A stretch of 64,000 nt of DNA from Isoetes taiwanensis (lineage: Eukaryota; Streptophyta; Lycopodiopsida; Isoetales; Isoetaceae): contig JAJEKV010000008.1 of assembly GCA_021234155.1 (NCBI GenBank), positions 6,448,945-6,512,944 of the forward strand, given 5' to 3'. The position numbers were made by a program, and so were the translations under genes. The notes beneath the pieces were generated by a model. The model saw only the letters and a program-made list of their open reading frames with translations. It was not told where the DNA came from and did no database searches. Position 1 is the first letter of the stretch. Every line of letters starts with the position of its first letter. Below, one piece after another: positions 3,057-39,905 of the stretch.

Positions 3057-4177
3057 CTATACAAATGTTATAGGACATTGTTTCTGTTTATATGCGAGCT
3101 TTAGCAAAGATGAGCTTTGGTAGTGGTGGGATGGGAGGTAGGAGGCAGTGGGATTGTGGAAGTGGAGGTGAGAGCCAATGGAAATGTGGAAAGGGGGGCT
3201 GACATCGGTACTGACATAGGAGTAGTGGGATGAGATATATATGGTAGCACTGCTATGGATAGGCACCCTCTCAATGTAAAGATCCACATCAACAGATGTA
3301 TACGGGAGGAATGAAGTACTAGGACATAGAGATGTTCCAACAAGTGTACGTGAGGGGGCCATATAATCTCTGTCATCCTCCATAGTAGATGAAGTGGAGG
3401 GACAAGCAAGTCCTAGTTGTAATGCATAATTTATCATAGCTCCTGCCTCTTGTATGCCCTGTACTAGAAAATGATGTCCAAGACCCAGACAACCCTCCTT
3501 AATCATGCCCTCTGTTACTGCATGACCTGAGGCTACTATACCATCAAATACAAAATCCTCAGCTACCTTGATATCCTCACCCTTCTCAATCCTATCGTCT
3601 GCTGTCCCTGTATGTAATGAGTCTATTAGAGCATCATGAGCCACCTCAAGATCCTTCTCCTCCTCAACATGCTTATGCCTATGTCTCCTCGTGAGCCTAA
3701 CCTCTGTCTCTCATCTATGCGTCTCTGCCCCAGCTGCACACACATCCAAGAGCCTCTGTACTTGCTCATCCATCCACGGATCCCTTCCCTGCAGAGCAGC
3801 CCATGCTAGCTCTAGTGGTGGCAGTGTCTGCTCCATCTTTCTCCACTCTATAATCATCCGTGTGTGTGCTCTAGCCCTATACTTCCTCTCTTGCTGGCTA
3901 ATCAAGTAATCTGCTTTGCTACACCGCTCTTGTCCACGCATGTGGCTCTTCTCCCTTTCTTTTTCGCAGGGGCATCCTCATGCCTCGTACGTGCACCTCA
4001 TGCACGAGGAACCCAAGGCACCTCACTGTGCTTATCCCTCTGATGGATAGCTACCCCCTGCATCGTCATCCCCAAATACCCCTCCCCACCATGGTCATGG
4101 GTATGGATGCACCCATCATATATGCAAAACCACATGTCCTGAGATATGGCAAACTGCCCATGTATAGTCATCGTTAG
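3057..4177 (-). pseudogene. Unrecognised decayed ORFs
   Basis: Minus-strand reading frames run from about 4177 to 3057, broken by several stops. The middle part (3941-3711) is charged and helical (ERKYRARAHTR, DPWMDEQVQRLLDV). The distal part (3644-3057) has an acidic start and a long Ser/Thr/His/Pro-rich tail (ISSHYSYVSTDVSPP). No family is recognised. The position just inside a Helitron-type 3' end suggests a decayed transposon ORF or captured gene. The plus-strand ORFs over the same stretch look like shadows. Confidence 0.3.
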
Positions 4178-4732
4178 ACGACGTATCTTTCATAACCCGT
4201 TATGCACAACCCTAATTCAAACACAAATATTAATGCTAAGATGAGAGGCTACTACGATTTTAAAAGGAAATTTGAGAAATTTATATCTTACCCTATATAC
4301 TTCTTACGATCTAAATCTATTGTAATACCTCTTATGACCTAAATCTATTGTCTAGGAAAGAAGAACATTATAATACCCACACTTTAGCACCCCAGGTCAT
4401 ATGTCTGGATGGCATCGCCACACCACCTCCCTCTTGCTGTGAGTCTTTTGTAGCCATCCCTATGATAAAGCGCTAGAAAAATCATGTTTTAGTTAGAAGA
4501 CCATAAATATTATATGCACACAATTAAACATTTGCAAATACATCTTATTAACCATATATACACTCTTAAGCTAATGTAAATCCACACGAAGTCGAGTGTA
4601 CAATTGCTTTTTGTTTTAATATTAAGCAACAAGCTCGAGTCTTAGTTTTATCCTGATATTAATCACAGTTTCATTAAATATGGACAATACCTTGAATTGT
4701 GGACTTTTTATAAAACAGACGCTTCGATAACA
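4178..4732. other. AT-rich spacer
   Basis: No coding signal. It contains one short internal duplication (the 'ctaaatctattgt' unit at about 4309 and 4343) and otherwise AT-rich sequence leading to the 3' end of the transposase pseudogene. Confidence 0.5.
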
Positions 4733-7700
4733 CTAACATACATCCCCGGCAAGTGCCGCGTATGCTTCTGCAACAAGCGTAGGAATCTTGACAGTGTTTG
4801 GTAGCTTCTTCTTATTCGAAGGACTCCAAGCATAGTCGATACTCTCTATCTCAATGCGGTCACTAGCAGTCGTCGGCCTCCATCTCTTCTTCCAACAATT
4901 GACATAGTTGGACATCTGGTTCCTAACAGGGACAGGCTCCCACCAAGTGACCTGGATAGTCTCGAAGTTGTCTTTCTTATCATCCATTTGGGGTTCCTCT
5001 GTAGCATATCCTAGCCATGTTGGGCACAAGACATCATCAATACAAACATGCCCTTCTTCAAATCCTTGAATGGATTGAATTCTGGTACGGGCTTATCCTT
5101 CAATGGACCAACATAAGCAGGAGTGATGGTTGCAATTGGCTCCACCACAGCCACCACATCAGGTATGTCAAGTCTATCTTGCCTAGTGCGCGGCCAAAAG
5201 TCCTCGTAAGGATCTTCCACGTTGGTGATGTTACCCAGATGCTGCAAGAGTCCCATCCAATATTCAATTGTCGCCGTAAATTGTGCTGTATATTTGGCCG
5301 TCTCTGGTGTGCCCTTCCTATTCGTCGAGCATGCGATCCAATGGAGGATATGCTTATGGATACTGTTTCGGAGCTGACCAATGTCTTTCACCGAGGTCTT
5401 AGGTGCTAACATCTTCGGATTTCCAGATGGCATTAGGGGTTTTCCATTCTCTCCTTCTTTCCACATTCTTATTCTAGCAGCAGGTAACCAATCCACGAAC
5501 GTAGGACGAGCCTTATGGTACATGACAGGCCAGTCACCATTCATAGCAAATCTAAAGGTCAGAGGCTCAGTGTGACCAGTCAATCTATCTTCCCCATCAG
5601 GGATATACCCTTCTATAAAACCTTTCCAATCTGGAACCTTATCAACAAGATATGGCACTGGCGTGTTGAGATTGCACGTATGAAATTCATACAACTCGGG
5701 CATGGTTAGCACTTCGGCTTTCTTCAAGGTAGATGAAAAATTACCAAACATAGCATCTATATCATCATGAGTATGGCCAGGCATCATAAAACCTAACTCA
5801 ATCTCCTCGAAAACACCGAGATATACAAGGTATGAAAGATATGAGAATACATACCTATTTTTGTTTTGTCCAGATGCATTGTCTAGTTGCAACATCAATT
5901 GCTTCAATGAGGGTCCCTCCGGTTGAGGGAGGGCAACGGGGATGCTCTTGCCAGATAGCGACAACTTGGACGCTAGCGCGGTGGTGTCACGTAAGGCCCT
6001 TGCCCAATCTGAGACTGATGGATCAGACAATGCAAGATGGCCTCCTGCAAACTCATTAGGCAGCTCCAACTTTTCAAAATACTATTCAAGGAACCTACGT
6101 GGAAGTTGGAGTCGTCTGACCACAGATCCAAAGCAAAATTTCCATAGGACCCTCTCCCATGGCCGTGGGTAAGTGCACCTGTCAATGAAGTCTTTAGCTT
6201 ATCTAGTCTCCAAAGGGACTTCACGGATTGTAGCAACTTTGGAATCATAGTCTTTGCCTAATCCATTTTGTCGTGAATGATACATACATAGTCTCCAGGA
6301 TGCCTGTGGGATAACAGTCTTCATGACCAGTACTGGGTGCGACATGATTGCTGCTCTAGTCTATGTGCCCTTCTCTGATCATGCAATATTCTCCTTTCAG
6401 CCTCATCCTTGGTCTTCAACAGCTTCGTCCGGATAACCTCGCAAGTGTCACACTTGGAGAATGCAATCTTCTTAGCAATACTGACGTCCTTGAAGCTACG
6501 TCTCCACGTTCTATGAAATCCTGTCGGAGACACCTTCTTGCCTGTGAGTGCCATCACTTCAGTGTTGACCTCTTCGAGAATGCAGGTCTTCGTAAACATA
6601 GCAGGCAACTTTCTCACATTTTCTCGAATCCCATCATCATTCCTCCTGCTACAGTGAGGTAAGGATTCACAATTTTCCTTCACAAACATAGAAAAAGCAG
6701 CCTCTGAGGCCAAGGTCGCGGCACGTGCTTTCATCGTGCCTGAATTGCCATGCTCAGCCTTTCGAGCACCGGAGCGGAATTGTGCCTTCCACTTGAGATA
6801 CCCTGACTTTGAAATCCCAAGACCAAGGTACCAAGCTCTCTCACAGACACTGACGCCTTGCAAGACTAGCCGATGTACTCTTCTACCCTTTATATTGTTG
6901 CCTAACATATCATACACAAAAGTGGTCCTGTCACTCGATTTCATGGCAAAGAAATCCTTTCGCATGTTTATAGCTTGATCCCTACTGAATTTCTCACAAC
7001 ATCTCTGTTTGCAACACATGGTCTTCCTATACCTCAAGATGGATTCATTGGTTGTTAGCCGATCTATCTTTGGAGGCTTTGATGCTTTCTTTGACTGACG
7101 AGAATGGAAGGTGTATTTACGCTTCTCGTACTGCAGATGCTTCTCAAGCTCCGAGCTGCCCTGGCTCGACGTCGTATCATGTTGTTCCACTGGTGCTGCA
7201 CTTAAAATCTCCGACACCTTCACCCCAGAAACCCTAACTAGATCATTATTCCACCTCAAAAGCATGCCCGCTTTAGGTACTGTCAAACATGCCTGACACC
7301 GGAAGTTCACCTCTATCGGAGGGGGAAAGCCTTCAGTAACAGACACTCCTACGGTCTTCATACCCAAAAACTGGTCACATACTGCATCGTCTGGACCAAT
7401 GAAGGATATAAATCCCTTCGCTGCAGGGATGGCAGCACAAGAGTGAAAAATTTCGCAGTCAGTCTCCAGTAGTGTGTACCTAGTTAGCGACATAGTGTCT
7501 CTGTTGCTTCCCACTCGCTGTCTTTTGGATGCTGATGGCACGTCCACGACATTGGAGTCGTGACCATCACTTTCCCTCCAGAGAATGAAGGAACCTAGGG
7601 CCTCACCTAAGGTTCTTGCATCTGGAGTAGGCCAACAGAGAACATGATGCCCCTCAAACACAGCTAGAACACCAACACTCACAACTCCATCTGGGATGTC

Positions 7701-7781
7701 TTTAAAATGGCATCTATCCCTGGCTCCTATGGCTCCTTTGACACCAGCCCGACCGTCTTTGAATAGGTACACCTCCTGCAC
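4733..7781 (-). pseudogene. DDE-like (DUF7869-type) transposase, decayed
   Basis: Minus-strand coding region in three blocks. Block 1 (7781-6321, 486 codons) is basic and Cys-rich in its middle (CCKQRCCEKF), and its start sits on a strong splice acceptor (T7-GTGCAG at about 7777), so upstream exons are expected. A TGA at 6323-6321 is followed in the same frame by VCIIHDKMD, a TAG, then AKT. This is the first acidic site of the DUF7869-type RNase-H-like core (usual form D-x-MD-Q-x-KT). Block 2 (6248-about 6075) has LTGALTHGHG and DDSNFHV. A frameshift near 6070 leads to block 3 (to 5011) with LQLDNASGQNKNR and GHTHDDIDAMF, the second and third acidic sites. Another shift near 5025 leads to the tail with IQVTWWEPV. 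All three acidic positions survive, but two stops and two frameshifts make this copy inactive. The family assignment comes from motif memory and the transposase role is inferred. Confidence 0.72.
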
Positions 7782-7804
7782 AAAAAAATGAATCAGTTTT
7801 AGAG

Positions 7805-8305
7805 CAAAGTTGTAGCAGATGGTCCTTAGCAGGTGAAATTGGGCGGGCGCCCAATTTGCTCCCTGTTGTAGTGGTCCTCAGCGGATCAAATTGGGAACCC
7901 GCCCAATTTGTTCCCAGTTGTAGTCGTCCTTGGCAGGTGAAATTGGGCACCCGCCCAATTTGCTCCCTGCTGTAGTCGTCCCTGCTGCTCCCTGTTGTAG
8001 TGGTCTTCAGGAGTTGAATTTGGGCACCCACCCAATTTGCTCCCTATAGTGATGGTCTTTAGAAGTTGAAATTGGGCACCCGCCCAATTTGCTCCCTGTT
8101 GCAGTGTTCCTTAGCAGGTGAAATTGGGCGGGCGCCCAATTTGCTCCTTGTTGTAGTGGTCCTTAGCAGTTGTAATTGGGCACCCGCCCAATTTGCTCTC
8201 TGTTGCAGTGGTCCTTAGCAGGTGAAATTGGGCAGGCGCGCCTAATTTGTTCCTTGTTGTAGTGGTCTTTAGCAGTTCTAATTGGGCACCCGCCCAATTT
8301 GCCAG
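7805..8305. repeat. 52-bp minisatellite with palindromic core
   Basis: About nine to ten units start at 7836, 7888, 7940, about 8017, 8069, 8121, 8173, 8225 and 8279, so the period is 52 bp with one longer step. Each unit carries a palindrome built from CAAATTGGGC and its complement GCCCAATTTG around 2-4 variable bases, then a 'ctccctgttgtagtggtcc' linker. The array lies just upstream of the splice acceptor of the minus-strand transposase, so it may be intronic. Confidence 0.88.
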
Positions 8306-9766
8306 TACAGGAGGTCTATCTGCCCATATGTAGTTACTCAGGAATCAAATTAGGCACCCACCCTACTTGGCCTTGCACATCTACCTGGGTATGAAATTGA
8401 GCAAGGAACCCGATTTGCTAACCCAGCTGGAATTTAATTTGGCCATTCGCATCTACCTGGTGTGTCTAATTGGGTTGTAACCAGGACAGCTTCTATGCTA
8501 CCCCAGCTAGAATCTAGGCTACATCAGTTATGTTGGGGGGACCGCACATGCATCTCTCAAATTTCTATTTATTTCTCAAATCTTCTCATCAATAATGTTC
8601 TATACCAATCTAGGCATCTTAATATCAGCGCATGCAACCCACAGTGGCAAAGGGGCAAAAGTATGCTAGTGGGTATCAAAAAAACGCGGCCCCAGCACTT
8701 AGATCAGCACCCTGGATGTACTATTCTATCATAGTATTCCACTTGTTATTAGTTGGAGTTGTTACATATTTCTATTGATTACCTAATTACCATGTGCTAG
8801 TACCAGTAACACCTTAAACAAGCTGCCATATGGGGTGCTATATGAGTGCTGTCAGCATGTGTCCGGACGCCTGCTTTTGATACCCACCAGCATACTTTTG
8901 CCCAAAGAATAAACGTATAAACCGAAAGAAATTTACCTTTGGTGAAGTGCACGCCATCCGCTGAACAAGTAGCCGCCCAAGAATGTGAGAGAACGAAATG
9001 GCTTAGCCGCTCCGCTTCCTTGAGACTAATTCAAAATTCAAATCTCCCACGAGAGTTTGATTGGGCGGGCGGGCGCGTAATATAAATTCAAATTCAAATT
9101 CGGGCGGGCCCGTAATTCAAATTCGGGCGGGACCGTAATTTTAAATTCAAAATCGAGCGGGCGGCCCGTAATATAAATTTAAAATTGGGCGGGCCGCGTG
9201 AGAATTCCAAATTTAAAATTTAAAATTTAAATTCCACGACGTCTATATTAATTTAAAAATCCGCATTTAATGTTTCGGGCACATTTATTGCAAAAGTCTA
9301 TCTTTATTGTTATTTGTTTTGGTCTATATTTAGTTAAAAAGGTCTATGTAAAAGGCTCTTCATTTGCATGGCTGCCACTTGTCATTCACCTGTTCAATCT
9401 CACCGCCCATTCCTTTTCGCTTGCTCATTCATTCCTTTCCGACAACAGTTGCCTGTAGTCTTATTCTCTGAGGATCACGATACGCCTATCGTCTTCAAAG
9501 TGATTGCGCCTCCCATCATATCTTCTAAGCGCCCTCTCTGAGCATCCAAGCGCCACTGCTTTTCATGGAACGTCGACCCTCGAAGGCAGGAAAAGGTACT
9601 GCTTTTTTGTTCAGCTTTAGTTTATTATATTACTGCAGGCGATAAGCCACTGGCCATTTGCATTCTTGCCCTAAATGAAATTCTCAGCTATCCTACATCC
9701 ATCATTTTTTGTTTCTATGCTTCTAAACCCTCTGGCGCGCACCTCTGGCCGCTTGGTTGTTACTAA
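8306..9766. other. Spacer with GC/AT alternating block
   Basis: No supported gene. Degenerate versions of the palindromic unit trail off to about 8480. At 9055-9235, GC-only blocks (gggcgggc, gggcggcccg) alternate with AT-only blocks (ataaattcaaattc, taaatttaaa), giving strong local compositional swings and many short inverted repeats. This could be a subterminal or terminal region of a mobile element, but no TIR pair was found. Confidence 0.45.
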
Positions 9767-10325
9767 GTACCTCAGAAGTTGTGTCCTCTGCACCAAATAA
9801 CCCTCTGGCCCATTGCATCTTTCTAAGTACCTCAGAAGCTGTGTCCTCTGCACCAAATAACCCTCTGGCCCATTGCATCTTTCTAAGTACCTCAGAAGCT
9901 GTGTCCTCTGCACCAAATAACCCTCTGGCCCATTGCATCTTTCTAAGTACCTCAGAAGCTGTGTCCTCTGCACCAAATAACCCTCGGCCCATTGCATCTT
10001 TCTAAGTACCTCGGAAGATGTGTCCTCTGCGCCAAATAACCCTCTCGCCCATTGCATCTTTCTAAGTACCTCGGAAGTCGTGGTCCTCTGCACCAAATAA
10101 CCCTCGGCCCATTGCATCTTTCTAAGTACCTCGGAAGCCGTGTGTCCTCTCGCACCAAATAACCCGTGGCCCATTGCATCTTTTTAAGTACCTCGGAACA
10201 CTGTGTCCTCTCAGACCAAATAACCCTCGCCCATTGCATCTTTCTAAGTACCTCAGAAGCTGTGTCCTCTGCACCAAATAACCCTCTGGCCCATTGCATC
10301 TTTCTAAGTACCACAGAAGCTGTTT
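9767..10325. repeat. 60-bp minisatellite
   Basis: About nine tandem units of exactly 60 bp, with three consecutive ones near 9787-9967 almost identical. Units to the right carry small indels. Because 60 is divisible by three, long ORFs are open on both strands (20-residue repeats such as SEVLRKMQWARGLFGAEDTA on the minus strand). This is a by-product of the period rather than evidence of a gene. Confidence 0.92.
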
Positions 10326-10379
10326 CCATGCATCCACACACCCTCTGCGGGTGCCGAAAAGCTGTTTCCATGCTTCTAA

Positions 10380-10885
10380 ATGTCCTCTGGGGTGGCAAAT
10401 TGGGCGGGCGCCCAATTTGGGACCCTCTTGCCTCTCTACGTGCTTCCAAACCTCCTCCGGTGCGGCAAATTGGGCGGACGCCCAATTTGTCAAACTCGCC
10501 TCCTTTCCTGCTTCCATTGCACTCCTCTGGGGTGGCAAATCGGGCGGGCACCCAATTTGGCACCCTTTTGGCTATTTCCCTGCTTCCAAATGTCCTCTGG
10601 TGTGGCAAATTGGGTGGGCGCCCAATTTGGGACCCTCTTCCCTCTCTCCGTGCTTCCAAACCTCCTCTGGTGCGGCAAATTGGGCGGATGCCCAATTTGT
10701 CACCCTCTTGCCTCTGTTCCTGCTTCGGAAACTCCTCTGGGGTGGCAAATCGGGCGGGCGCCCAATTTGGCACCCTCTTGGCTCTTTTCCTGCTTCCAAA
10801 TGTCCTCTGGGGTGGCAAATTGGGCGGACGCCCAATTTCGCACCCGGTCCTCTAGTGGGGCAAATTGGGCGCACGCCCAATTTGA
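10380..10885. repeat. 70-bp minisatellite with the same palindrome
   Basis: Units begin (at the AAATT of the palindrome) at 10398, 10467, 10537, 10607, 10677, 10747 and 10817, a period of 69-70 bp, with a shortened last unit at 10862. Each has arms CAAATTGGGCG and CGCCCAATTTG around a two-base spacer. The linker (cctctctccgtgcttcc...) differs from the 52-bp array at 7.8 kb, so only the palindromic core is shared. Confidence 0.92.
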
Positions 10886-10944
10886 TGTCCTAGGAACATT
10901 TAATTTTTCTGATGACACGGTTGTGGGCTTCTCTGTGCCTTTCT

Positions 10945-11583
10945 GTCCATCACTCTTTCTAGCAAGTCCATAACGTGACCTCAACCACGCCGTGTGATAG
11001 ACCTTTGGTTGGCTCTTTCCATGATATTCTGTATAAAGGGCTTTTGATCGATTTTGTTTGTGATCGAGTATCCACTGTCTAACTGTATTAAATCCATCAA
11101 TAATATCTCCCCGTTTGGTCAGTCCAGATTTCTCAAGGCTTTCGTAAGAAGCCAAGACCCAGCCCTTGGCTTGAGACGAATGTGGAGCCTCAGTGATGCT
11201 TGCATGCATTTGTAAGTTTCGAAGGGTAACCTGTATCCTTGAAATGACTTATCAAGCACGTCTTCCACGACAACATCTATCTCGTTGGCAACCTCAGTGC
11301 TCACATTCATGTCAATTGCTATGCCAGCATTCTGTGTCCTCCGAGTCCCGGGCTCAGCAAAGTACAAGCACAGATCCTTGAGATGATTTGTGCTAGAGCC
11401 AGGGTGGATTGGGCCTACATCTATGCATCATGAAAACTTATCGGCTACAGCAGTCATTAGCTCTGGGACGACTTCAATACCATTGAACTGAATGCTTGAA
11501 TCTGCTTCCTTTGCTGCAGCAAATGCCTGTGCCAACGGAGGGCCAGATCCAGGTACATGTGCAGTTTGCTTAGTTCTGGCCAT
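10945..11583 (-). pseudogene. ORF with histone H3-tail-like N-terminus
   Basis: Minus-strand ORF with an ATG at 11583-11581 in a strong context (ACCCATGGCC). The protein opens MARTKQTAHVPGSGPP. Residues 1-8 equal the start of histone H3 (Met plus A1-R2-T3-K4-Q5-T6-A7), after which similarity stops; K9 and the rest of the H3 tail are absent. The frame meets TGA at 11430-11428 after 51 codons, then stays open (GIAIDMNVSTEVANEIDVV) to about 11200. There it shifts into a second frame (FNTVRQWILDHKQNRSKAL) that reaches about 10,945 before running into the 70-bp minisatellite. No known fold is recognised beyond the tail. It is on the same strand as the transposase at 4.7-7.8 kb, whose first visible exon begins at a splice acceptor, so the two could be one split gene with the minisatellites in introns. 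That link is inference. Confidence 0.55.
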
Positions 11584-11737
11584 GGGTGCTGCATAACATC
11601 ATTCATTAATCCCATTAGTAGTGTATGCAAGCATTAAAACAAGGTAGGGGATGCCCCCCATAGGGGGTTTGAAAGCACGAAAAGAGGCAAAAGGGTGCCA
11701 AATTGGGCGCCCCCAATTTGCCCCACTAGAGGAGGTT
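11584..11737. other. Divergent spacer with lone palindrome
   Basis: This short gap separates the H3-tail-like ORF (minus) from the methyltransferase-like ORF (plus). At 11,699-11,720 it holds a single copy of the CAAATTGGGC / GCCCAATTTG-type palindrome seen in the 52- and 70-bp arrays. A shared bidirectional promoter would lie here if both genes were expressed. Confidence 0.5.
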
Positions 11738-11740
11738 TAG

Positions 11741-12664
11741 AGACACGGATTTATCGCTCCAGATCGTTTGAGTGAATGCTTGTCCGCCATGAAGACTATA
11801 GACGGAGGTAGTCGTGTATGGGTGGGAGCGTACCAGGATCCAAAAAAGAGAAACCCTTCATCTCGTGTTCGCGAGCTGCAGACCCTTGTTCTGGTAATGT
11901 ACGTGGCCGGAGACCAAGCAGCTGCCCCTGCTATGCATGACCTGAATCTATGCTTCAACGACGCGGACCATCCTCAAGAGTATTCGAAGTTTCCGCAGCA
12001 CTTGAAAGAAGTGGAGGACATAGAGAAGAACCTCCCCGATCATGAGTGCGCAGCAGGTAACATGGTTTAAACTTGTGTCTCTGTCCATTTCTTTTCAATA
12101 CCACTTATAACGGTTGTCTACTTTCCTTCATCATACTGGTTGTATCGGCCTTGGGGTGATAAGAGTGCGGGAGGAGGCGCGGGTGCTCTTTTGCCACATC
12201 AATTGGATTCCAGGACATGCACATACCTAGTGCGGAAATTTATGCTAGAGGGTTGCAGTGTCCTTGATTTCTTCTCCGGAGGATCGTTTAGCCGTGCAGC
12301 TTTGTGTGAAGGGTATAAAGCTATTGCCTTTGAGATTGATGAGAATATGCAGCTTAAACTTGTTCAGATTTTTGATCAACTCGAAGTAATGCTGGACGAG
12401 AAGAAATCGAGAGCCCGTGCTTTGCAAAAAATAGCAGAGGGAAAAAAGAAAGCAAGTGGCTCCAAGGCATCGACAGTAGCGACCGCTACTCCACCTCCTT
12501 GTCCATTCCCTGCACAAACAGTGCAGGAGTTGCAATCCACTCTCCGAATGTCTAAGGATTTTGTCACAGACCATTTGAGAAAGGTGGGAGGTTTTGGAGC
12601 AAAGGACATGTCTTTCTTTAGAAAGAGAAGGAGAACATTAATGCATTGGCGGGCACTGCACTAG
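11741..12664 (+). CDS. N4/N6 DNA methyltransferase-like ORF (partial)
   Basis: Two plus-strand blocks. Block 1 (11,741-about 12,056) encodes LSECLSAMKTIDGG, then LQTLVLVMYVAG and HDLNLCFNDADHPQEY. It ends at AGCAG|GTAACA, a plausible splice donor. Block 2 (about 12,140-12,664) encodes YRPWGDKS, then VLDFFSGGSFSRAAL and AIAFEIDEN, then a Lys/Ala-rich linker and a basic C-terminus. The order 'P-x-x-K, VLD-x-F-x-GGS, AFE-x-D' matches motifs X and I/II of beta-class N4/N6 amino-DNA methyltransferases (usual motif I form DPFxGSG). The catalytic D/N-PP-Y/F motif, expected upstream, is not visible, so the copy is 5'-truncated or missing exons. It lies head to head with the H3-tail-like ORF. The methyltransferase call rests on motif I and its spacing; another Rossmann-fold enzyme is possible. 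Confidence 0.45.
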
Positions 12665-13821
12665 TGTGCACCCAAGATCTGGTCGAGGGTAGCTCGAAGT
12701 TTACGCAGCTACTCCTCAAGGACCAAGAACCTTCTGTTGTATTGGAGACACAACCGTTGCTCTTTTGCAAAATTTGGCCTGCCCAGATACCTCAGATTCT
12801 TCAAAAATAGGGAATGCAAGTGCTTAGTTCTATGGGATTTGTCATTTTTAAGCCCAAGCGGTTGGAGCTGCTATGTACATATTTTACTCCTTTATCTTCT
12901 CTTTTGTTACTGATGTTGAACAACAATAGGATAAGGTTCTTCATTGAAACTGAAACCAAAGGCCTCAAAATCACCAAAGACCTCAAAATTGGCTATTCAG
13001 GTAGATAGCTTTGCTTCGATTTCTTTATGCTGTTGTATTCTCTTCTCGGGTGGCCCGAATTTAGTAGAAGTTTTTTGCATGTTGTAGAAACTGCCACAGG
13101 TCCAGCTTTATCCAAGTCAGCATTTGAACCTTTCAATTGTAGCCTTTGATTGGTAGAAAAGGATTTAATGGTGCTAAAAGTTAGATCATCATAGATATAT
13201 ACTCGGTTTTGCCTATCACTTATGTCTCTAAACTTGGGCGTCTCTGTTTTGAGCTAGATTATTAAATGATTCCTTGCTGCGTTTTTGCTTCCTTGTGTTT
13301 TATTCTACAGAAAGAACTTCTAAAATCAATGTTTAGACGATTTTTTGCTTGATTTTGCAGAGAATATAATATACAAGCTACACTGCTTCTGATATAATAC
13401 TGCCTATGATTTCTACGCTGGTTGTGATATAAGTTTTCTTATGATGCAAAATTACAACTAATGGTCTTACTTTGCTGTTACTTTGTTGTGCTAAAATAAT
13501 TTGATCCACTTAAAAACTTTTGGCTGTTGACAAATATGTCCGACGATTCAATGTGCTCTAAGGTCATCTATAGGATTTTTGTTTGCTTTGAATAGCCACA
13601 AGATAAAAGCACTCAACAATGTGGCATCTCTAGGGAGTAATATGCCATATTTCAGTAATACAAGTTTCCACCTTTGTAACTTCCTCTTTAGTGAGCAATG
13701 TAGTAAAATTTCAGTAGTTTCCACGTTTCTTTAACATTCATTTTTATAAAGCCCATGCACTATCAAGATATCTTCCAACATACTTCTACAAATTGCAATT
13801 TTTAATTCGATGTTATTCAAC
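12665..13821. other. Spacer without genes
   Basis: AT-rich, with no motif-bearing ORF. The minus and plus ORFs near 12,801-13,008 overlap each other and show no domain. Confidence 0.55.
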
Positions 13822-13824
13822 TTA

Positions 13825-14186
13825 GGGTGCATCCCCATTAGGGCGAAACAGGGTTTTTCCTCCTCTTCCACATCATCAAATCAAGAAGACCCATAGTTCC
13901 TATTGCGACCTGATTTCGCCACCAGAAGAACACAAAAGAATCCTCAATAGAGATCTTGCAAGAAGACAAAATTCTTGCAAGAGGACAAATTGTTCTTTGC
14001 TAAAAGACAAATTGAGTTTCCATTTAAGTTTTTCGGAAGTAGGCTGGAACTTCCTAAATCAAATCAGTTTTCTGTGCCATGTGGGCTAAAACCAGGAAGA
14101 GGAAGTATGTTGATTTTTGTCCTTATTCGCCACTCGCCACGAAGCAAAAAAAAGAGGCCTATTTGGGTCTAATGGGGATGCACCCT
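13825..14186. mobile_element. Tourist/Harbinger-type MITE
   Basis: A 362-bp element bounded by inverted repeats: GGGTGCATCCCCATTAG at 13,825 and its reverse complement ending at 14,186, matching perfectly for 17 bases. Each end is flanked directly by TTA, the target duplication made by PIF/Harbinger elements. There is no coding capacity. It sits about 150 bp upstream of the eIF1A start codon, so it lies in or near that gene's promoter. Confidence 0.85.
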
Positions 14187-14311
14187 TAGTGAATTTAATT
14201 TCATGTTCAATTAAAGATTTTTGCTTCCACTAGGATAACATAGCTTTGGAGGCCTTTATTCGCTATATTCAACTCGTAAGGGTTTTCTCTCCTCCTCCGT
14301 TCCTTCGGCAC

Positions 14312-14333
14312 AGAGAGAGAGAGAGAGAGAGAG
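14312..14333 (+). repeat. (GA)n in eIF1A 5' leader
   Basis: About 11 GA repeats immediately precede the ATG of eIF1A, after a CT-rich stretch (14,285-14,300). GA/CT tracts are common in plant core promoters and 5' UTRs. Confidence 0.85.
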
Positions 14334-14334
14334 C

Positions 14335-14772
14335 ATGCCAAAGAACAAAGGAAAGGGAGGAAAGAACCGCAAGCGAGGTAAAAATGAAGCAGATGATGAG
14401 AAGCGTGAGCTTGTCTTCAAAGAAGATGGCCAGGAATATGCCCAAGTGCTGCGTATGCTTGGAAACGGCCGTTGTGAAGCTCTATGCATCGATGGTACCA
14501 AGCGTATGTGCCATATCCGAGGTAAGATGCATAAAAAAGTCTGGATTGCTGCTGGTGATATAATTTTAGTAGGTCTGCGTGACTATCAGGATGATAAGGC
14601 AGATGTTATATTAAAATATATGCCAGATGAGGCCCGTCTCCTTAAGGCCTATGGTGAACTTCCCGATAACCTTCGTCTTAATGAGGGTATTGCTGGTGGT
14701 CTTGATGAAGAAGAAGAGGGTGGTGGTGATGACTACTTGGAATTTGAAGATGAAGACATTGATAAGATTTAG
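14335..14772 (+). CDS. eIF1A: Translation initiation factor eIF1A
   Basis: Complete uninterrupted 145-residue ORF. eIF1A binds the A site of the 40S ribosomal subunit and, with eIF1, promotes scanning and start-codon selection. The basic N-terminal tail ([19 protein letters not shown]) is diagnostic. It is followed by the OB-fold core (about residues 25-95; [38 protein letters not shown]) and an acidic C-terminal tail ([17 protein letters not shown]). The length equals that of plant eIF1A, and no residue looks lost. A single exon is normal for plant eIF1A. The ATG follows a GA-rich leader with a MITE just upstream. Part of the 3' end and 3' UTR is duplicated about 1 kb downstream. Cytosolic; very likely functional. 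Confidence 0.96.
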
Positions 14773-15644: not shown

Positions 15645-16215
15645 AGAACTTTCCTCTTAATGAGGGTATTGCTGGTGTCTTGATGAAGAAGAAGAGGGCG
15701 GTGGTGATGACTACTTGGAATTTGAAGACATTGATAAGATGTAGTTAATAAGTTTAAACATATTTGACTTAGCCGATTAGCAACTTCCCTATGTGTCACT
15801 TGTAGCTTCTTAATAATATCTTTATTGTTGTTTCTTTTAACTAATTTCTCTGGTCCCATCAGAGGACTTGTAGTATTTTTGTAGTGTGCCTGTCCGCTGG
15901 TAACTAGTTTCTTGGATTGGACGAAGTTTATTAGGTTAAAACTTTTACTTCGTGTAAGTCTTTTGTTCTTTTAGTATCTATTGAATAGACCCACAAACTT
16001 AGTAGTAGCTTGAACAAAACTTGTGTTTTGTAACATTTATTAGACCAAGCCAATCCAGGTATTATCACAAGAGACAAATTTCCTTGTAGAAAATGTTCTC
16101 ATAATTATTCTGTTCCAATTTTTGATGGACAAATTTCATTGTAGAAAGTGTTCTCATAGTTATTCTGTTCCAATTTTCGATGGAACTGTCTAGAAACATT
16201 CATAAAGAATTACTG
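15645..16215 (+). pseudogene. Partial tandem copy of eIF1A 3' end
   Basis: The stretch 15,652-15,742 repeats the last about 100 coding bases of eIF1A (14,668-14,772) with small indels, including loss of one GATGAA unit. The similarity continues through the 3' UTR to about 16,215. No 5' part is present. It arose as a segmental duplication (introns cannot be used as a test, and there is no poly-A tail). An internal about 64-bp repeat at 16,075-16,195 is superimposed. Confidence 0.88.
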
Positions 16216-20949: not shown

Positions 20950-23900
20950 TATTTAGACAGTCCTGAGGCCTTCCCGAAGAGGGGCCCCTGAACGGAGGAT
21001 CCAACGGTCGGATAGGGGAACCGGGCTCCGGGAGGGTGGTCATTAAGCGTCACGGCCCCCCGGGAGCGCCGAAGGGCTACCTCGGGAACTTTTTTGGATC
21101 CCGCCTCCTGGGGTCCGGACTCTCCCCTCTTGTGAGGGATCCCTGCAAGGTCCTGGCCTCGTTTGACTTGGGGGAGGGTGCCAGCTTGGTTGCCCCGCAA
21201 CGGGCTGCCCCGACCGTTCTAATGCTAACCCTTTGACCTAGACCTTCTCCGAAAATTCCAAAAATTGGGCTGTGTGCTGGAGATGAATTAGGAATCCAGC
21301 TGGCAAAAAATCAGAATTTATTTTCGTACAATGCATTAATTGCGAATTTATGAATGTCTTGCCACTGCAAAAGCGCCCCCCGACTTCTACTTGCCACATC
21401 GGGAGGAAGACAGGCCCAAACTCCGCTCCGTCAGTTCCCCTTGCTCCGTATTCTCAGCTGCAGCCACTCGGCCAGGTCCCAAGTGCAACAGACCAAGTCT
21501 CGGCTCTCAAAACGCAAACCCTTCTAGAACCTGGCAACCCACAGGGTTTACGTTTTGGAGGCCCTCTCCTTGTCAGATTCGGGCGGGACCTTGCACCGTG
21601 ACTTGACGTGGAGTGGGGGTGTTGACGCCAAAGCACGGACCCTAAAATCCCCCCGGAAGCTGCTTGCCCCGAATTTCCTCTCCCCAAGGCCCTGGGGACG
21701 GACGGGCGACGCGATTTGGCTCTGCCAATGGACTCAGAACGTCGACATTGCCTTGGGGACCAAGTTCCGTGGCCAGAAGACCACCCGACCTCCAAGAAGC
21801 GCCAAAGTAGCTCACTTCCATCACACTCGTAGTCAATTGGCCTAGGATGTGGATGCGGGATACTGTCGTGGAGGGCGTGAGTGTTTCTTTCTTTTGCAAA
21901 ACCGACCTTGTAACTTGCTCCCTAGGGTAATTTCGCCATTCCGGACGATTTGGCAGGGTCGATTTGCCATTCCGGAGCCTCCCCGGGGCCCGAACGATAA
22001 AACACTGCGGTTTATACAAGCCCGACCTCAGAACGCCCCGCGGTTTGACAAGTTCTCCCGGACCGATCTGGAACCTTTTGTGCCTTCCCGAAGAGGGGCC
22101 CCTGAACGGAGGATCCAACGGTCGGATAGGGGAACCGGGCTCCGGGAGGGTGGTCATTAGCGTGCAGCCCCTCGGGGGAGCGCTGCCAGGAAGGGCTGCC
22201 TCGGGAACTTTTTTGGATCCCGCCTCTTGGGGTCCGGACTCTCCCCTCTTGTGAGGGATCCCTGCAAGGTCCTGGCCTCGTTTGACTTGGGGAAGGGTGC
22301 CAGCTCGGTTGCCCTGCAACGGGCTGCCCCGACCGTTCTAATGCTAACCCTTTGACCTAGACCTTCTCCGAAAATTTTGAAAATTGGGGGCTGTGTCTTT
22401 GGAGATGAATTAGGAATCCGGTGGCAAAAAATCAGAATTTATTTTCATACAATGCATTAATTGCGAATTTATGAATGTCTTGCCACTGCAAAAACGCCCC
22501 CCGACTTCTACTTGCCACATCGGGAGGAGGACAGGCCCAAACTCCGCTCCGTCAGTTCCCCTTGCTCCGTATTCTCGGCTGCAGCCCCTTTCGGCCAGTC
22601 CCAAGTGCACAGCAGACCAAGTCTCGCCCCTCAAAGCGCAAACCCTTCTAGAACACGGCAACCCACGGGGTTTACGTTTTGGAGGCCCTCTCCTTGTCGG
22701 TCGGCCGGACCTTGCGCCGTGACTTGACGTGGAGTGGGGGTGTTGACGCCAAAGCACGGACTCTAAAATCCCCCCGGAAGCTGCTTGCCCCGAATTTCCT
22801 CTCCCCAAGGCCCTAGGGACGGACGGGCGACGCGATTTGGCTCTGCCAATGGACTCAGAACGTCGACATTGCCTTGGGGACCAAGTTCTGTGGCCAGAAG
22901 ACCACCCGACCTCCAAGAAGCGCCAAAGTAGCTCACTTCCATCACACTCGTAGTTAATTGGCCTAGGATGTGGATGCGGGATACTGTCGTGGAGGGCGTG
23001 AGTGTTTCTTTCTTTTGCAAAACCGACCTTGTAACTTGCTCCCTAGGGTAATTTCGCCATTCCGGACGATTTGGCAGGGTCGATTTGCCATTCCGGAGCC
23101 TCCCCGGTGCCCGAACGACAAAACACTGCGGTTTATACAAGCCCGACCTCAGGACGCCCCGCGGTTTGACAAGTTCTCCCGGACCGATCTGGAATTTTTT
23201 GGGCCTTCCCGAAGAGGGGCCCCTGAATGGAGGATCCAACGGTCGGATAGGAGAACCGGGCTCCGGGAGGGTGGTCATTAGCGTGCAGCCCCCCGGGGGA
23301 GCGCTGCCAAGAAGGGCTGCCTCGGGAACTTTTTTGGATCCCGCCTCTTGGGGTCCGGACTCTCCCCTCTTGTGAGGGATCCCTGCAAGGTCCTGGCCTC
23401 GTTTGACTTGGGGAAGGGTGCCAGCTCGGTTGCCCTGCAACGGGCTGCCCCGACCGTTCTAATACTAACCCTTTGACCTAGACCTTCTCCGAAAATTTCG
23501 AAAATTGGGCTGTGTGCTGGAGATGAATTAGGAATCCAGCTGGCAAAAAATCAGAATTTATTTTTGTACAATGCATTAATTGCGAATTTATGAATGTCTT
23601 GCCACGCAAAAGCCCCGACTTCTACTTGCCACATCGGGAGGAGGACAGGCCCAAACTCCGCTCCGCCGGTTCCCTTGCTCCGTATTCTCTGGCTGCAGCC
23701 ACTCGCCAGTCCCAAGTGCAACAGACCAAGTCTCGCCCTCAAAACGCAAAACCCTTCTAGAACCTCGGCAACCCACGGGGTTTACGTTTTGGAGGCCCTC
23801 TCCTTGTCGATTCGGCCGGGACCTTGCTTGGCGCGGACTTGACGTGGAGTGGGGGTGTTGACGCCAAAGCACGGACCCTAAAATCCCCCTAAGCTGCTTT

Positions 23901-26900
23901 CCGAATTTCCTCTCCCCAAGGCCCTAGGGACCTGACCTCCCAGGACGATTTTGGCTCGCCAATGGACTCGGAAACGTCGACATTGCCTTGGGGACCAAGT
24001 TCTGTGGGCGAAGACCACCCGACCTCCAAGAAGCGCCAAAGTAGCTCACTTCCATCACACTCGTAGTTAATTGGCCTAGGATGTGGATGCGGGGATCTTG
24101 CCGTGGAGGGCGTGAGTGTTTCTTTCTTTGCAAAACCGACCTTGTAACTTGCTCCCTAGGGTAATTTAGCCATTCCGACGATTTGGCGGGGTCGATTTGC
24201 CATTCCGAGCCTCCCGGTGCCCGAACGACAAAACATCTTGCGGTTTATACAAGCCCGACCTCGGGGCGCCTAGCGGTTGACAAGTTCTCCCGACCGATCC
24301 GGAACCTTTTGTGCCTTCCCCGAAGAGGGGCCCCCGAATCGGAGGATCCAACGGGCCGGATAGGGGAACCTCCCGGGAGGTGGTCATTAGCGTCTCGGCC
24401 CAGGGAGCCCAAGAAGGGTCGCCTCGGGAACTTTTTGGATCCCGCCTCTTGGGGTCCCGGACTCTCCCCTCTTGTGAGGGATCCCCGCAAGGTCCCCGCC
24501 TCGTTTGACTTGGGGAAGGGTGCCAGCTCGGTTGCCACAGCGGGCTGCCCCACCGTTCTAATACTAACCCTTTGACCTAGACCTTCTCCTAAAATTTCAA
24601 AATTGGGGCTATGTCGGAGATGAATTAGGAATCCAGCTTGCAAAAATCAGAATTTATTTTCGTACAATGCATTAATTGCGAATTTATGAATGTCTTGCCA
24701 TTTGCAAAAGCGCCCCCCACTTCTACTTGCCACATCGGGAGGGACAGGCCCAAACTCCGCCCGGCCGGTTCCCTTGTTCAGTATTCTTGGCTGCAGCCAC
24801 TGGCCAGTCCCAAGTGCAATGACCAAGTCTCGCCCCCGCAAAACGCAAAACCCTTCTAGAACCCGGCAACCCACGGGGTTTACGTTTTTGGAGGCCCTCT
24901 CCTTGTCGGTTCGCCGGGACCTTGCGCGCGGACTTGACGTGGAGTGGGGGTGTTGACGCCAGAGCACGGACCCTAAAATCCCCCCGGAAGCTGCTTGCCC
25001 CGAATTTCCTCTCCCCAAGGCCCTGGGGACGGACGGGCAACCTCCCCTCTCCGGAATCGCGATTTGGCTTTGCAAATGGACTCAGAATGTCGACATTGCC
25101 CTGGGGACCAAGTTCCGTGGCCAGAAGACCACCCGACCTCCAAGAAGCGCCAAAGTAGCTCACTTCCATCACACTCGTAGTCAATTGGCCTAGGATGTGG
25201 ATGCAGGATACTGTCGTGGAGGGCGTGAGTGTTTCTTTCTTTTGCAAAACCGACCTTGTAACTTGCTCCCTAGGGTAATTTCGCCATTCCGGACGATGGC
25301 AGGGTCGATTTGCCATTCCGGAGCCTCCTCGGTGCCCGAACGACAAAACACTGTGGTTTATACAAGGCCGACCTCGGGGCCTTGCCGGGTTTGACAAGTT
25401 CTCCTGACCGATCGAATTTTTTGGGCCTTCCCGAAGAGGGGCCCTCGAATGGAGGATCCAACGGTCGGATAGGAGAACCGGGCTCGGAGGGTGGTCATTA
25501 GCGTCGCAGCCCCGGGAGCCGCGCAGAAGGGCTGCCTCGGGAACTTTTTGGATCCCGCCTCTTGGGGTCCTGGACTCTCCCCTCTTGTGAGGGATCCCCG
25601 AAAGGTCCCGCCTCGTTTGACTTGGGGAGCGTGCCACTCGGTTGCCCCGCAACGGGCTGCCCCCGACCGTTCTAATGCTAACCCTTTGACCTAGACCTTC
25701 TCCTAAAATTTCAAAAATTGGGCTATGTCTTTGGAGATGAATTAGGAATCCAGCCGCAAAAAATCAGAATTTATTTTTGTACAATGCATTAATTGCGAAT
25801 TTATGAATGTCTTGCCATTGCAAAAGCCCCCCCGGCTTCTACTTGCCACATCGGGAGGAGGACAAGCCCAAACTCCGCCCGTCGGTTCCCCTTGCTCCAG
25901 ATTCTCGGCTTGCGGCTTCTCCCCAGTCCCAAGTGCAATGACCAAGTCTCGCCCCCCAAACGCAAACCCTTCTAGAACCTGGCAACCCACATGGTTTACG
26001 TTTTGGAGGCCCTCTCCTTGTCAGATTCGGCCGGGACCTTGCGCCGTGACTTCACGTAGAGTGGGGGTGTTGACGCCAGAGCACGGACCCTAAAATCCCC
26101 CGAAGCTGCTTGCCCCAAATTTCCTCTCCCCAGGCCACGGGGACCCGAGGGCGACCTCCCCTCTCCCAATCGCGATTTGGCTCTGCCAATGGACTCGAAC
26201 GCCGACATTGCCCCGGGGACCAAGTTCCGTGGCCGTAAGACCACCCGACCTCCAAGAAGCGCCAAAGTAGCTCACTTCCATCACACTCGTAGTCAATTGG
26301 CCTAGGATGTGGATGCGGGATACTGTCGTGGAGGGCGTGAGTGTTTCTTTCTTTTACAAAACCGACCTTGTAACTTGCTCCCTAGGGTAATTTAGCCATT
26401 CCTGGACGATTTGGCGGGGGTCGATTTGCCATTCCGAGCCTCCCCATGCCCGAACGACAAAACATCATGCGGTTTATACAAGGCCGGCCTCGGGGCGCCC
26501 AGCGGTTTGACAAGTTCTCCCGACCGATCTGGAATCTTTTGGGCCTTCCCAAGAGGGGCCCTCGAACGGAGGATCCACGGTCCGGATAGGGGAACCGGCC
26601 CGGAGGGTGGTCATTAGCGTCGGCCCAGGGGGCGCCGCCAGAAGGGCTGCCTGGGAACTTTTTGGATCCCGCCTCTTGGGGTCCGGACTCTCCCCTTGTG
26701 AGGGATCCCCGCAAGGTCCCGCCTCGCCGGACTTGGAGAAGGGTGCGGCTTCGGTTGCCACTGCAATGGGCTGCCCCGACCGCTTCTAATGCTAACCCTT
26801 TGATCTAGACCTTCTCCTAAAATTTCAAAAATTGGGCCGTGTCTTTGGAGATGAATTAGGAATCTAGCTGGCAAAAATCAGAATTTATTTTCGTACAATG

Positions 26901-27370
26901 CATTAATTGCGAATTTATGAATGTCTTGCCATCGCAAAAGCGCCCCGACTTCTACTTGCCACATCGGGAGGAGGACAAGCCCAAACTCCGCCCGTCCGGT
27001 TCCCCTTGCTCGTATTCGGCGGCTGCGGCTTCTCGGCCAGTCCCAAGTGCAATGGACCAAGTCTCGGCCCCCAAAAACGCAAAACCCTTCTAGAACCCGG
27101 CAACCCACAGGGTTTTTACGTTTTCTGAGGCCCTCTCCTTATCCGATTCGTAGGGACCTTGCGTGCCGTGTCTTGACATGGAGTGGGGGTGTTGACGCCC
27201 GCAAATGAGACCCTAAAATCCCCCTAAGCCGCTGTTGCCCCGATTTCCTCTCCCCAAGGCCACGAGGGGCGGACGAAGCGATCTCCCCTCCCCGAACCCG
27301 CGATTCGTCTCTGCCAATGGACTCAGAACGTCGACATTGCCCTGTGGAGCAAGTTCCGTGGCAAGACCAC
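20950..27370. repeat. 1.1-kb tandem satellite, about 5.7 copies
   Basis: A recurring landmark (agatgaattaggaat) lies at 21,281, 22,403, 23,521, 24,618, 25,735 and 26,849, giving periods of 1122, 1118, 1097, 1117 and 1114 bp. The first unit is partial. Units are GC-rich. The two units around 21.6-23.5 kb are nearly identical and share a 225-codon minus-strand ORF (22,319-21,642 and 23,440-22,763). The later units carry many small GC-rich indels that destroy it. No protein family is recognised, and I treat the ORF as unproven. Confidence 0.95.
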
Positions 27371-35295: not shown

Positions 35296-35540
35296 TGAAA
35301 TACTGAGTGCTTTATTCCAAAAGAACACGAAATCTACAAAGAAATCTGCATAAATAGAAGACATCCTGGCTTTTAGGAGTTGGCTAAAGCGGCCACCGAG
35401 ATGTCTTCTATTTCAGAATCTACGCCAAAATTGGCTGCTGGAATTTAGGGTTTGATTGAACATTAATCAGGCTAATAACAGCACAGACTTTTTGTGTCTT
35501 TTAATGTCTGTTTGTTATGCCTTTACAGCATGTTCCAACA
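35296..35540 (-). repeat. 3' LTR of Copia B
   Basis: 245-bp LTR identical to the copy at 39,918-40,162 except for two transitions near its 5' (right-hand) end. Confidence 0.96.
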
Positions 35541-35550
35541 CTCCCCCTCA
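35541..35550 (-). promoter_or_regulatory. Polypurine tract of Copia B
   Basis: Minus strand TGAGGGGGAG lies immediately upstream of the 3' LTR, the plus-strand priming site. A second G-rich tract (plus strand ctccccctcag) is near 35,637. Confidence 0.85.
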
Positions 35551-35676
35551 AATCAGACTTAACAAGACAACTAAAATGAAGAAATTAACTACTCAACTTA
35601 GCTGTTTCAGATATGGATTGGCTGCTCCCCTTGACTGCTCCCCCTCAGAATGGAAATGGATTGCAGCCGATGATAT

Positions 35677-38349
35677 TCATGTAGTAGTCATCCCTAACTC
35701 ATTGATGCACCTGCAGAATGGTTTTCTACCCAAAGGTTTTGTGAATACATCAGCTGGCATTTTATCTGTCCTGAGATACTGCACATCAATTTTGCCCTCT
35801 ATGATTTTCTCTCTTGTGAAATGATACTGCACCTGTATATGTTTGGCTTTTGAAAAATTGGTGGGATTTTTAGCAAGTGACAACGCTGCCTTGTTGTCAT
35901 TGAAGATGACAGTGCCCTGTTCCTGAGCTGTATTGAGCTCTTTTAGCATTCTTCTCAACCAAATGGCCTCTTTGGCAGCAGAAGCAAGCGCCATATATTC
36001 AGACTCGCAACTTGATGCAGCAGTTGCCTTTTGTTTTTTACTGGACCAGCTCACTGCTCCCCCTTGCAGCATAAAACAAAAGCCACTTCGAGATTTCCGA
36101 TCTATGGAATCTCCTGCATAATCGGCGTCAGCATACCCTACAAGAGTGAGTGAGCTACCAGCATGAAAGGTGATGCCAAGGTTCTTAGTGCCTTGTAGGT
36201 ATCTGAGCAATCGCTTAAGGCCCTGCCAATGTTGAGTCTCCGGCTTCTCGAGAAATTGGCTGAGCGTGATCACAGCTTGAGAAATATCCGGTCGCGTGCA
36301 GACCATGAAGTGCATCAGGGAGCCAACAATGCTTCTATAGCCTATCGCTCGTAATTCAGAGTCGATACTTTTAAGGGAATGAGAATGCTGAGTGGTAGCA
36401 GGGGTGGCGATGGGCTTACTGTCCTCCATGTTACATCTGTTGAGGAGAGATTGGATCGCTTTAGTCTGATGGAGGGTGATGTTGCCACTGTCCGCATCTT
36501 TCAGCACTTGAATGCCAAGGAAATAGCGCAATGCTCCAAGATCAGTCATGTGGAAGCGTGTATTGAGGGCTGCTTTGGTGCTGTTCATGAGCAATGGACA
36601 GTTACTAGCCAAGATCAGATCATCTACGTAGAGTACGATGATGATCATGTTAGAATCGTGGATCTGGTAATATATGTTCCAATCAGCCTGGCTGCGTGAG
36701 AACCCCTTGTCTGAAAAGAATTGGTGTATGGTGTGATACCATTGCCAGGAGGACTGCTTCAAGCCATAAAGGGCACGTTTCAGCTTATATACCAAGTTCT
36801 CTTTTCCCTTTGTTGTGAAGCCAGGAGCCTGCTTCATGTAGACTTCCTCCTTTAAGTGGCTATGGAGGAATGCTGTTTTTACATCCATTTGTTGAAGATC
36901 CAAATTATGTGCAACTGCCATAGCAATGACCAATCTAACAGATGTCAAGCGTGCCACAGGTGCAAATGTTTCATGGAAATCAACTCCGGGTATTTGGGAA
37001 TACCCCTTTGCTACGAGGCGTGCTTTGTATCTATCAATGTGTCCTGCTTCATCATACTTGACTTTGTAAACCCATTTGCACGACACTGCTTTTCTGTTTG
37101 GAGGAAGGGAGCATAAGGTCCAAGTATCATTGTCCAATAAGGACTGATATTCATCATGCATTGCCTGCTGCCATGCTTTACAGTGAGGGCTGCTAATTGC
37201 TTCTTGAAAGCTGAGGGGCTCATCCATTGTGACTGTGGTATGAAATGCGATGTAAGATGATGTTTTTCCTGATTTAGACTCAAGGTATGACTGCATCCTA
37301 TCAGTGAGCTTTCTGTTCCGGCCTGACCGTCTGATGGGGACAGCAGAGAGCTCCTCGTCCTCTTCAAGGTCAGTTTCTTCTGGTTCTGAAGGAAGAGGTT
37401 CTGGATCTGCGTAGGAAGGGTCCTCATGATCGTCAACAACATGTGTTTCTTCAGGGCAGTTTTCATGTTCATCATCATCGTCACTTTCATGCCACTCAAC
37501 CATGGAAGATTTCTCCTTTTTGCCAATCGAGAATACACTTTCATCAAATTGGACACTTCGTCTTACAATGATCTTTCTGCTGGAAGGCACATAAAGCCTA
37601 TACCCTTTGACATGCTCATCATATCCAACAAACATGCAAGCCAAAGCACGGGTAGATAACTTACCTCGAGGACGCTCTTGGGGACTGAGATGCGCATATG
37701 CCTTGCAGCCAAAGATCTTGAAATCTTGCACATCTGGTTTGTGACCAGACCAAACTTCCTCTGGTACACTGTTGGGATTTGCCTTGGTAGGCACTCTGTC
37801 GAGAATGTAACAGGCCGTATGCACTGCTTCTGCCCAAAAAATTGGATCAAGTCCCCTGCCATAGATCATAGCTCGAGCACATTCAAGCATGGTACGATTT
37901 TTTCTTTCCACCACGCCATTTTGTTGATGTTCATATGCTACTGATCTCTGATGATGTATGCCAGATTGCTGCAAGAAGTGGCTGAGTCTATGATTGACAA
38001 ATTCCCTATCTTGGTCTGTTTGAATGGTTTTTATAACACATTCAACCTGTTTTTCGACCATTGTTTTCCATCTGGTAAATTCATCAAATACCTCAGATTT
38101 GTGTTTAAGGAAGAAAACCCAATTCTTCCTGCTGAAATCGTCAATGATCAGCATAAAATACTTTGAGCCCCCAAGTGATTTGATGCTCGCTGGCCCCCAC
38201 AAATCCAAATGCAGCAGCTCTAGTTGTTTGGATGCTCGTTTGGTTTTCTCCTTCCTGTACGATTTCCTTCTCAATTTGCCTAGCACACATCCTTCACAAA
38301 GGGATTGTGGCTTAGAAACTTTAGGCAGGCCCGTTACAAGATTATGTGC
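35677..38349 (-). pseudogene. Copia B pol: integrase, RT, RNase H
   Basis: Long minus-strand frame, in phase with the protease block upstream, separated from it by one TAA at about 38,349. Integrase: zinc-site end CEGCVLGKLRR, then LLHLDLWGP and the D,D-35-E core (QTDQDREFVN; VVERKNRTMLE). The Copia-specific C-terminal GKR-like segment (FKIFGCKAYAH) follows. Reverse transcriptase: WVYKVKYDEAGHIDRYKARL, QMDVKTAFLH and the catalytic YVDDLILAS. RNase H: KQKATAASSCESEYMALA and VFTKPL at the end. All catalytic motifs look intact over the 869 codons from 38,286. It copies and integrates the element via RNA in virus-like particles. The single stop in the linker just after LLKEM is what breaks the polyprotein. 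Confidence 0.93.
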
Positions 38350-39851: not shown

Positions 39852-39905
39852 GATTGATGCTTATAAACCACGGTCTTTAGCTATGACGGGCCTTGGATCG
39901 TGCCC

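Follow-up and report, generated by a model that had tools for sequence, protein, structure and literature searches.

Enzymes that write epigenetic marks or erase them are an established cargo of transposons. Fungal TET/JBP dioxygenases, SET-domain HarbingerS and the Vandal anti-silencing protein are described as transposon-borne (PMC12730594), and retrotransposons with captured cytosine methyltransferases are reported (PMC5890265). Sola1-1_Ec32 of Ectocarpus is described as encoding a ParB-like and N4/N6-methyltransferase protein on the strand opposite the transposase, with similar proteins in transposons of green and red algae (PMC12477816). These algal transposons are the closest known system to the one described here from Isoetes taiwanensis, likened by the accessory gene and not by the transposase. 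The window, the whole 64,000-nucleotide stretch that was analysed (contig JAJEKV010000008.1, positions 6,448,945 to 6,512,944), contains three unusual coding units, and sequence comparison indicates that this DUF7869 transposase, H3-tail protein and methyltransferase-like domain are parts of one mobile DNA element. It is almost certainly a cut-and-paste DNA transposon of about 11.6 kb when complete, with the window holding a decayed and rearranged copy.

The Isoetes element resembles Sola1-1_Ec32 in being a large DNA transposon with an accessory gene opposite the transposase and an N4/N6-methyltransferase-like part. It differs in having a histone H3-tail motif near the N-terminus of the accessory protein, in the apparent loss of the catalytic motif and in that a ParB domain is not demonstrable. 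With the TET/JBP, SET and Vandal cases it shares an element-borne protein that may alter host silencing, except that the Isoetes protein is a histone-tail copy rather than a histone- or base-modifying enzyme. A DNA-methyltransferase-derived domain on a mobile element is likewise common to the retrotransposons, but those are retroelements with C5 enzymes, and the opening of their abstract mentions no H3 tail. Influenza NS1 is a viral histone H3 mimic, a parasite protein with a short C-terminal H3-tail-like motif, whereas the Isoetes motif is longer, is not C-terminal and occurs in a plant transposon family. A literature search for H3 tails or histone mimicry in elements returned no H3-tail-bearing transposon, as judged by titles and abstract openings, and one on DUF7869 returned nothing.

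The genome (1,658,258,908 bp in 1,110 contigs) was searched for all three units, and at least 114 DUF7869, 150 H3-tail and 134 methyltransferase-like candidates were scored; linkage, defined as units within 10 kb of each other, was counted among the matches listed. A methyltransferase-like unit accompanies 73 of the 147 H3-tail places, on the same strand in 71. DUF7869 accompanies 48, and here the strands are opposite in 45, the window being one of the three exceptions. Moreover, 36 of the 114 DUF7869 places lie near a methyltransferase-like unit, on opposite strands in 36 of 36, an arrangement as in the Ectocarpus type. By chance, a fraction of 0.0014-0.0018 of the H3-tail places would be linked to either partner, under 0.2% in each case. 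All three units occur together at no fewer than 28 places, 27 of which have a constant geometry, with the transposase on one strand and the H3-tail and then the methyltransferase-like unit on the other. In these 27, the methyltransferase-like unit starts 1.2-3.5 kb downstream of the H3-tail start (2.4-3.5 kb in 26), and upstream, on the opposite strand, comes DUF7869, at 3.7-5.1 kb to its near end in 23. The odd triple is the window copy, in which the H3-tail segment is inverted.

The ends of the element lie outside all three units in each of the three copies with both ends found. Copy A (contig C1063) spans 11,609 bp from index 3110 to 14718, with the three units inside 16-bp terminal inverted repeats (TIRs) of sequence AAGCACAGTTTCATTA, paired at 16 of 16 positions, and a 5-bp target-site duplication (TSD), CCATT. 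C1030 and C1078 also have TIRs at both ends, with 4-bp TSDs of GTGG and CCTA, which makes a TSD of 4 or 5 bp present in 3 of 3. Copy B (C1055) retains its right end and lacks the outer left one, and the right end of C1036 falls beyond the stretch examined. The left-end sequence (at least 20 of 25 bases) recurs at 27 of 30 DUF7869 loci, 21 times at the usual distance from DUF7869, with 12-bp flanks that differ; the match at L012 is of right-end type. TIRs, TSD and a transposase domain, the features of TIR-type DNA transposons that were tested, are thus all present; 4-bp TSDs would fit the Sola1 superfamily.

The initial annotation had proposed just such a single transposon with a DDE-like transposase, an H3-tail protein and a methyltransferase-like domain. 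The triples bear it out, and the idea survived a search for copies lacking units or with ends between them. That the three are unrelated genes or repeats brought together by chance could be argued from the window by itself, where a search for a bracketing TIR pair with duplication found none because the right end of this copy is missing; the recurrent triples and common TIR ends refute such an accident, leaving it a probability close to nil.

The transposase is the most readily recognized unit. Its DUF7869 domain (PF25273), which we take to be an RNase-H-like transposase, matches the minus-strand frame 5011-6081 at E=3.8e-32, as the initial annotation had it, and the start of the domain is found at 5973-6257 on the same strand (E=4.3e-5, under the curated cut-off). 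Between 7775 and 4733 two in-frame stops interrupt the frames, near 6322 and near 6258, and the frame changes at about 6081 and again at about 5030, so the transposase of the window copy is broken; five other DUF7869 places keep stop-to-stop frames of 997-1075 aa. The presumed first exon reads MAC(D/T)SPK|GTAAAT, with MACDSPK in copies A and B. A splice acceptor near 7776 is plausible, as had been suggested, with MACTSPK and not the H3-tail open reading frame (ORF) as its upstream exon. The further idea that the H3-tail ORF supplies the first exon or exons of the transposase is rejected because the two lie on opposite strands in the great majority of linked places listed (45 of 48) and the transposase has a first exon of its own.

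The H3-tail ORF, correctly placed on the minus strand from the start, opens with MARTKQTA at 11583. MARTKQTAR is, letter for letter, the initiator methionine and residues 1-8 of histone H3, here fused to unrelated domains, and the expected number of Met + ARTKQTA in six frames of the window is 2.4e-6. In the window copy the last arginine is replaced by histidine (MARTKQTAH). Exact MARTKQT is found in 24 of 30 close loci and exact MARTKQTAR in 16, and the latter also in eight of ten diverged copies, whose proteins are 41-64% identical. Between L041 and L073, the nine motif codons show seven synonymous and no non-synonymous changes, against a background of saturated synonymous sites (proportion of differences, pS, 0.84) and pN of 0.35; the same codons give five and none for L041 versus L070, and eight and three for L041 versus L074. 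Two pairs within the close family have ratios of non-synonymous to synonymous rates (dN/dS) of 0.28 and 0.31; between branches such ratios are meaningless because synonymous sites are saturated. In an alignment of nine copies, the motif ranks first of 209 nine-column windows and is the sole fully invariant one, a ranking biased because the copies were picked for beginning with it. Searched against the PDB, an alignment profile of the protein had just two hits, both of them histone H3 sequences aligned from residue 1 of H3, at insignificant E of 5.4 and 7.4. Together, these comparisons suggest that the nine residues are kept by selection, and mimicry of H3 is rather probably the reason.

The motif is not confined to this element. 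MARTKQTA is encoded at 2,079 genome sites (995 + 1,084) and a reversed-pattern control at 0; these numbers and the recurrence in diverged copies refute a chance origin, and although one such site in 1.66 Gb of sequence would not be impossible, this explanation retains practically no probability. Of the sites listed, which are the first ones, on contigs C1-C223, two fall on full-length histone matches, namely C105:150244 and C97:102411. Seven other sites, chosen by codon spelling and sampled over 210 bp each, include none that reads as H3: four keep an open frame through all 70 codons and read as other proteins, for instance MARTKQTARKYRLGEQPSAQ, one is open for 48 codons and two stop within 15. 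One of the seven, L079 (C3:293749-293958), belongs to a second dispersed family whose protein begins MARTKQTARK and looks unrelated after the motif. For this family there were 1,022 candidates, of which 150 matches were scored; about 125 of these begin at residue 1, and the open frames reach up to 454 aa. The chances appear even that mobile elements of this genome use H3-tail mimicry as a general strategy, in which the DUF7869 transposon and one or more further families, the L079 type included, would put the tail on proteins other than histones to capture or decoy the H3-reading machinery of the host. A separate genome search with the histone fold (PF00125) gave, among 150 scored matches, 15 at 164-165 bits covering nearly the whole model. 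The other 135 reach at most 154.7 bits and start at model positions 4-25, many of them in open frames of 200-494 aa, more than expected of ordinary histone genes.

Most likely, the H3-tail and methyltransferase-like parts belong to one accessory gene, the exon structure of which we infer from comparison among copies. Exon 1 has 31 nt (ATG..AAG|GT). Of 30 close loci, 22 have it, though it is interrupted by a stop in L034 and L056 and altered in length in L035, L054 and L059. Its residues are MERRPSKAGK in the window and MEKRPLKEGK or MASRPTTGGK in other copies. Eight of the 10 diverged copies have the exon with other residues (MASRPTTGGK, MDSRPTKGSK, MEAAAPRGGK), L069 and L071 being those in which it was not found. 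The junction with exon 2 is in phase in the four diverged types examined (the close family, the L065 type, L070 and L074), with predicted spliced products MEKRPLKEGK-AP-MARTKQTAR or MASRPTTGGK-GI-MARTKQTAR. By eye, RPTTGGK in some copies (equivalents of window 9565-9595, L065-L074) is like RKSTGGK of H3. If the motif were the functionless leftover of a captured H3 gene exon, it would be expected to take in the initiator Met-Ala, as it does; exact conservation of the nine residues in the diverged copies despite heavy synonymous change, and of exon 1 and the acceptor phase in 8 of 10 of them, make that origin very improbable.

Counted from the motif, exon 2 of copy A has 539 residues. They comprise a conserved region some 230 residues long, a linker that is basic and rich in serine, and a region with FWIVNGNHTTAVAQIL that by eye resembles ParB (GNHTTA box) and is mostly missing in L065. 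Later exons include SVDVVNTSARF (copies A and B) and VLDFFSGG (copy A and the window). In the window, the MARTKQTA frame from 11583 stops after 51 residues and is also shifted near 11.2 kb. A methyltransferase-like ORF had been read on the plus strand, and the frame 11741-12664 indeed contains a motif-I-like stretch. Its best match is to a PHROG DNA methyltransferase (E=2.2e-5); those to Pfam N6_N4_Mtase (0.03) and NCBIfam RsmD (0.021) are under their cut-offs, and that to RsrI methylase is at 1.5. No methyltransferase match was found for the exons of copies A and B in Pfam. Active N4/N6 methyltransferases carry a catalytic (D/N/S)PP(Y/F/W), and copies A and B have SARF where, by eye, (D/S)PPY is expected; the methyltransferase-like part is probably catalytically inactive. 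The single TAA near 12068 in the window was considered as proof of a dead methyltransferase-like gene, an argument dropped because one or more TAA, which may be intronic or a shared stop, also occur within the match in eight of the 10 other copies that scored best. Other Pfam matches of the accessory protein stay under cut-off (NUP210 Ig-like 0.0025-0.0041, bPH_9 0.0012 and DUF3634 0.0061 at best). No histone fold was found in exon 2 of copy A with Pfam, no relatives in the protein database, and nothing informative among viral contigs.

The motif-I-like stretch, with its match to phage DNA methyltransferases, is also what speaks for a protein of the algal kind, a ParB-methyltransferase that binds and methylates its own element and whose H3-like start is incidental or simply the N-terminus of a nuclear protein. 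The SARF substitution, a search of Pfam and the PDB that gave no ParB match, and an H3 motif at least as conserved as the domains all argue against this explanation, which we consider unlikely.

The layout of the window copy (Table 1) departs from that of copies A and B by rearrangement. Window 4658-7925 matches both directly, 10891-11738 matches them in reverse, and 11750-12753, where homology to A and B ends, matches directly again, displaced 2.3-2.5 kb further on. Missing from the window are 2.3-2.5 kb before 11750 and, compared with copy A, also 1.5 kb after 12753. The minisatellite at 7822..8302 has a counterpart at the equivalent position of copies A and B, the MITE-like (miniature inverted-repeat transposable element) insertion at 8653..8903 is missing from both, where its flanks are contiguous, and the minisatellite patches of the window have the common palindromic core AAATTGGGC..GCCCAATTT. 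The inversion probably arose between minisatellite repeats. The head-to-head order of the H3-tail and methyltransferase-like ORFs, noted initially, is a product of this local inversion and not native, and so is the impression that the H3-tail ORF might be the first exon of the transposase. In all seven window stretches tested, the claimed frame has the fewest stops of the six, and its codon-usage score is the highest in six, the exception being the transposase N-terminal stretch; no more than one of the scores lies above the 95% level of non-coding pieces.

Table 1. Features of the window copy, in window coordinates
Feature	Position	Strand	Remark
Left TIR AATCACAGTTTCATTA (AAGCACAGTTTCATTA in other copies), preceded by ATATT	4661..4676		Homology among copies begins here
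Transposase exon(s) with DUF7869, broken	4733..7775	-	Frames, profile matches
Minisatellite, 52-bp units, palindromic core AAATTGGGC..GCCCAATTT, presumed transposase intron 1	7822..8302		
Nested MITE-like insertion, 39-nt inverted ends, presumed transposase intron 1	8653..8903		Non-ancestral
Presumed transposase exon 1, M-A-C-T-S-P-K, donor GTAAAT	8937..8957	-	Phase 0 to acceptor 7776
Presumed accessory-gene exon 1, MERRPSKAGK, donor GTACTG, phase 1	9565..9595	+	Inferred structure
Minisatellites, 60-bp and 70-bp units, presumed accessory intron 1 region	9742..10897		
Inverted segment with start of accessory exon 2	10891..11741	-	87-88% to copies A and B in reverse
H3-tail motif MARTKQTA (MARTKQTAR in many other copies)	11560..11583	-	
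Inverted copy of 70-bp minisatellite unit, at inversion edge	11652..11749		
Accessory gene 3' part, motif-I-like VLDFFSGG	11750..12753	+	90% to copy A 12249-13240

Beyond the element, the window contains a second MITE-like element (13820-14190) with 33-nt inverted ends and a TTA flanking it at either end, which by eye resembles PIF/Harbinger elements, followed by an eIF1A gene at 14337-14772, the 3' part of which recurs as a partial copy at 15647-16129 (81% alike). A GC-rich tandem array of about 1.1-kb units, 84-90% alike, occupies 20967-27370. The Copia-like element at 35296-40168 has 251-bp terminal repeats 98.4% identical, and no H3-like start was seen by eye in its listed frames. A receptor-kinase-like gene segment is present three times (53736-54402, 58703-59395 and 62577-63244; 88-94% alike).

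Taken together, we favour, with moderate confidence, an element of two divergent genes, the DUF7869 DDE-like transposase and the accessory gene, with a central promoter region between them. The accessory protein would be nuclear and would sit on the DNA of its own element, perhaps on the palindromic AAATTGGGC..GCCCAATTT repeats, contacting DNA through its middle (ParB-like by eye) and methyltransferase-like domains, the latter, with catalysis probably lost, serving as a DNA- or S-adenosylmethionine-binding module. From there it would present a copy of the H3 tail (ARTKQTAR, which covers the K4 side and lacks K9) to the readers, writers and erasers of H3 marks in the host, and by recruiting or decoying these proteins it would keep the element expressed. 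This anti-silencing role is itself tentative, and we would put it slightly short of an even call.

Several observations weigh against this explanation. No methyltransferase-like partner lies within 10 kb of 74 of the 147 H3-tail places listed, and no DUF7869 within 10 kb of 99; truncation, insertion or partners beyond the matches listed may each be the cause. The exact MARTKQTAR is changed, frameshifted or without a match in 14 of the 30 close loci, and it is missing from the diverged L069, which has MAQTKQTAQ, and L074, where a 600-aa open frame has MARIKKTAR instead. On the other branch, dN/dS is 0.56 for L073 versus L066. Many H3-tail readers require a free Ala1, and the kept upstream exon would make the motif internal, some 13 residues in from the N-terminus, unless the motif itself is where translation begins. 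Both predicted structures, including that of the transposase, are of low confidence (predicted local distance difference test, pLDDT, 33 and 32), and the weak methyltransferase call and missing ParB match count on the same side.

If the favoured explanation is true, a transposon protein bearing the very tail of the histone would add a further means of coping with silencing. If the genome-wide pattern holds, the same mimic would have been taken up in several element families of one host, and the element supplies natural variants of the nine-residue tail.

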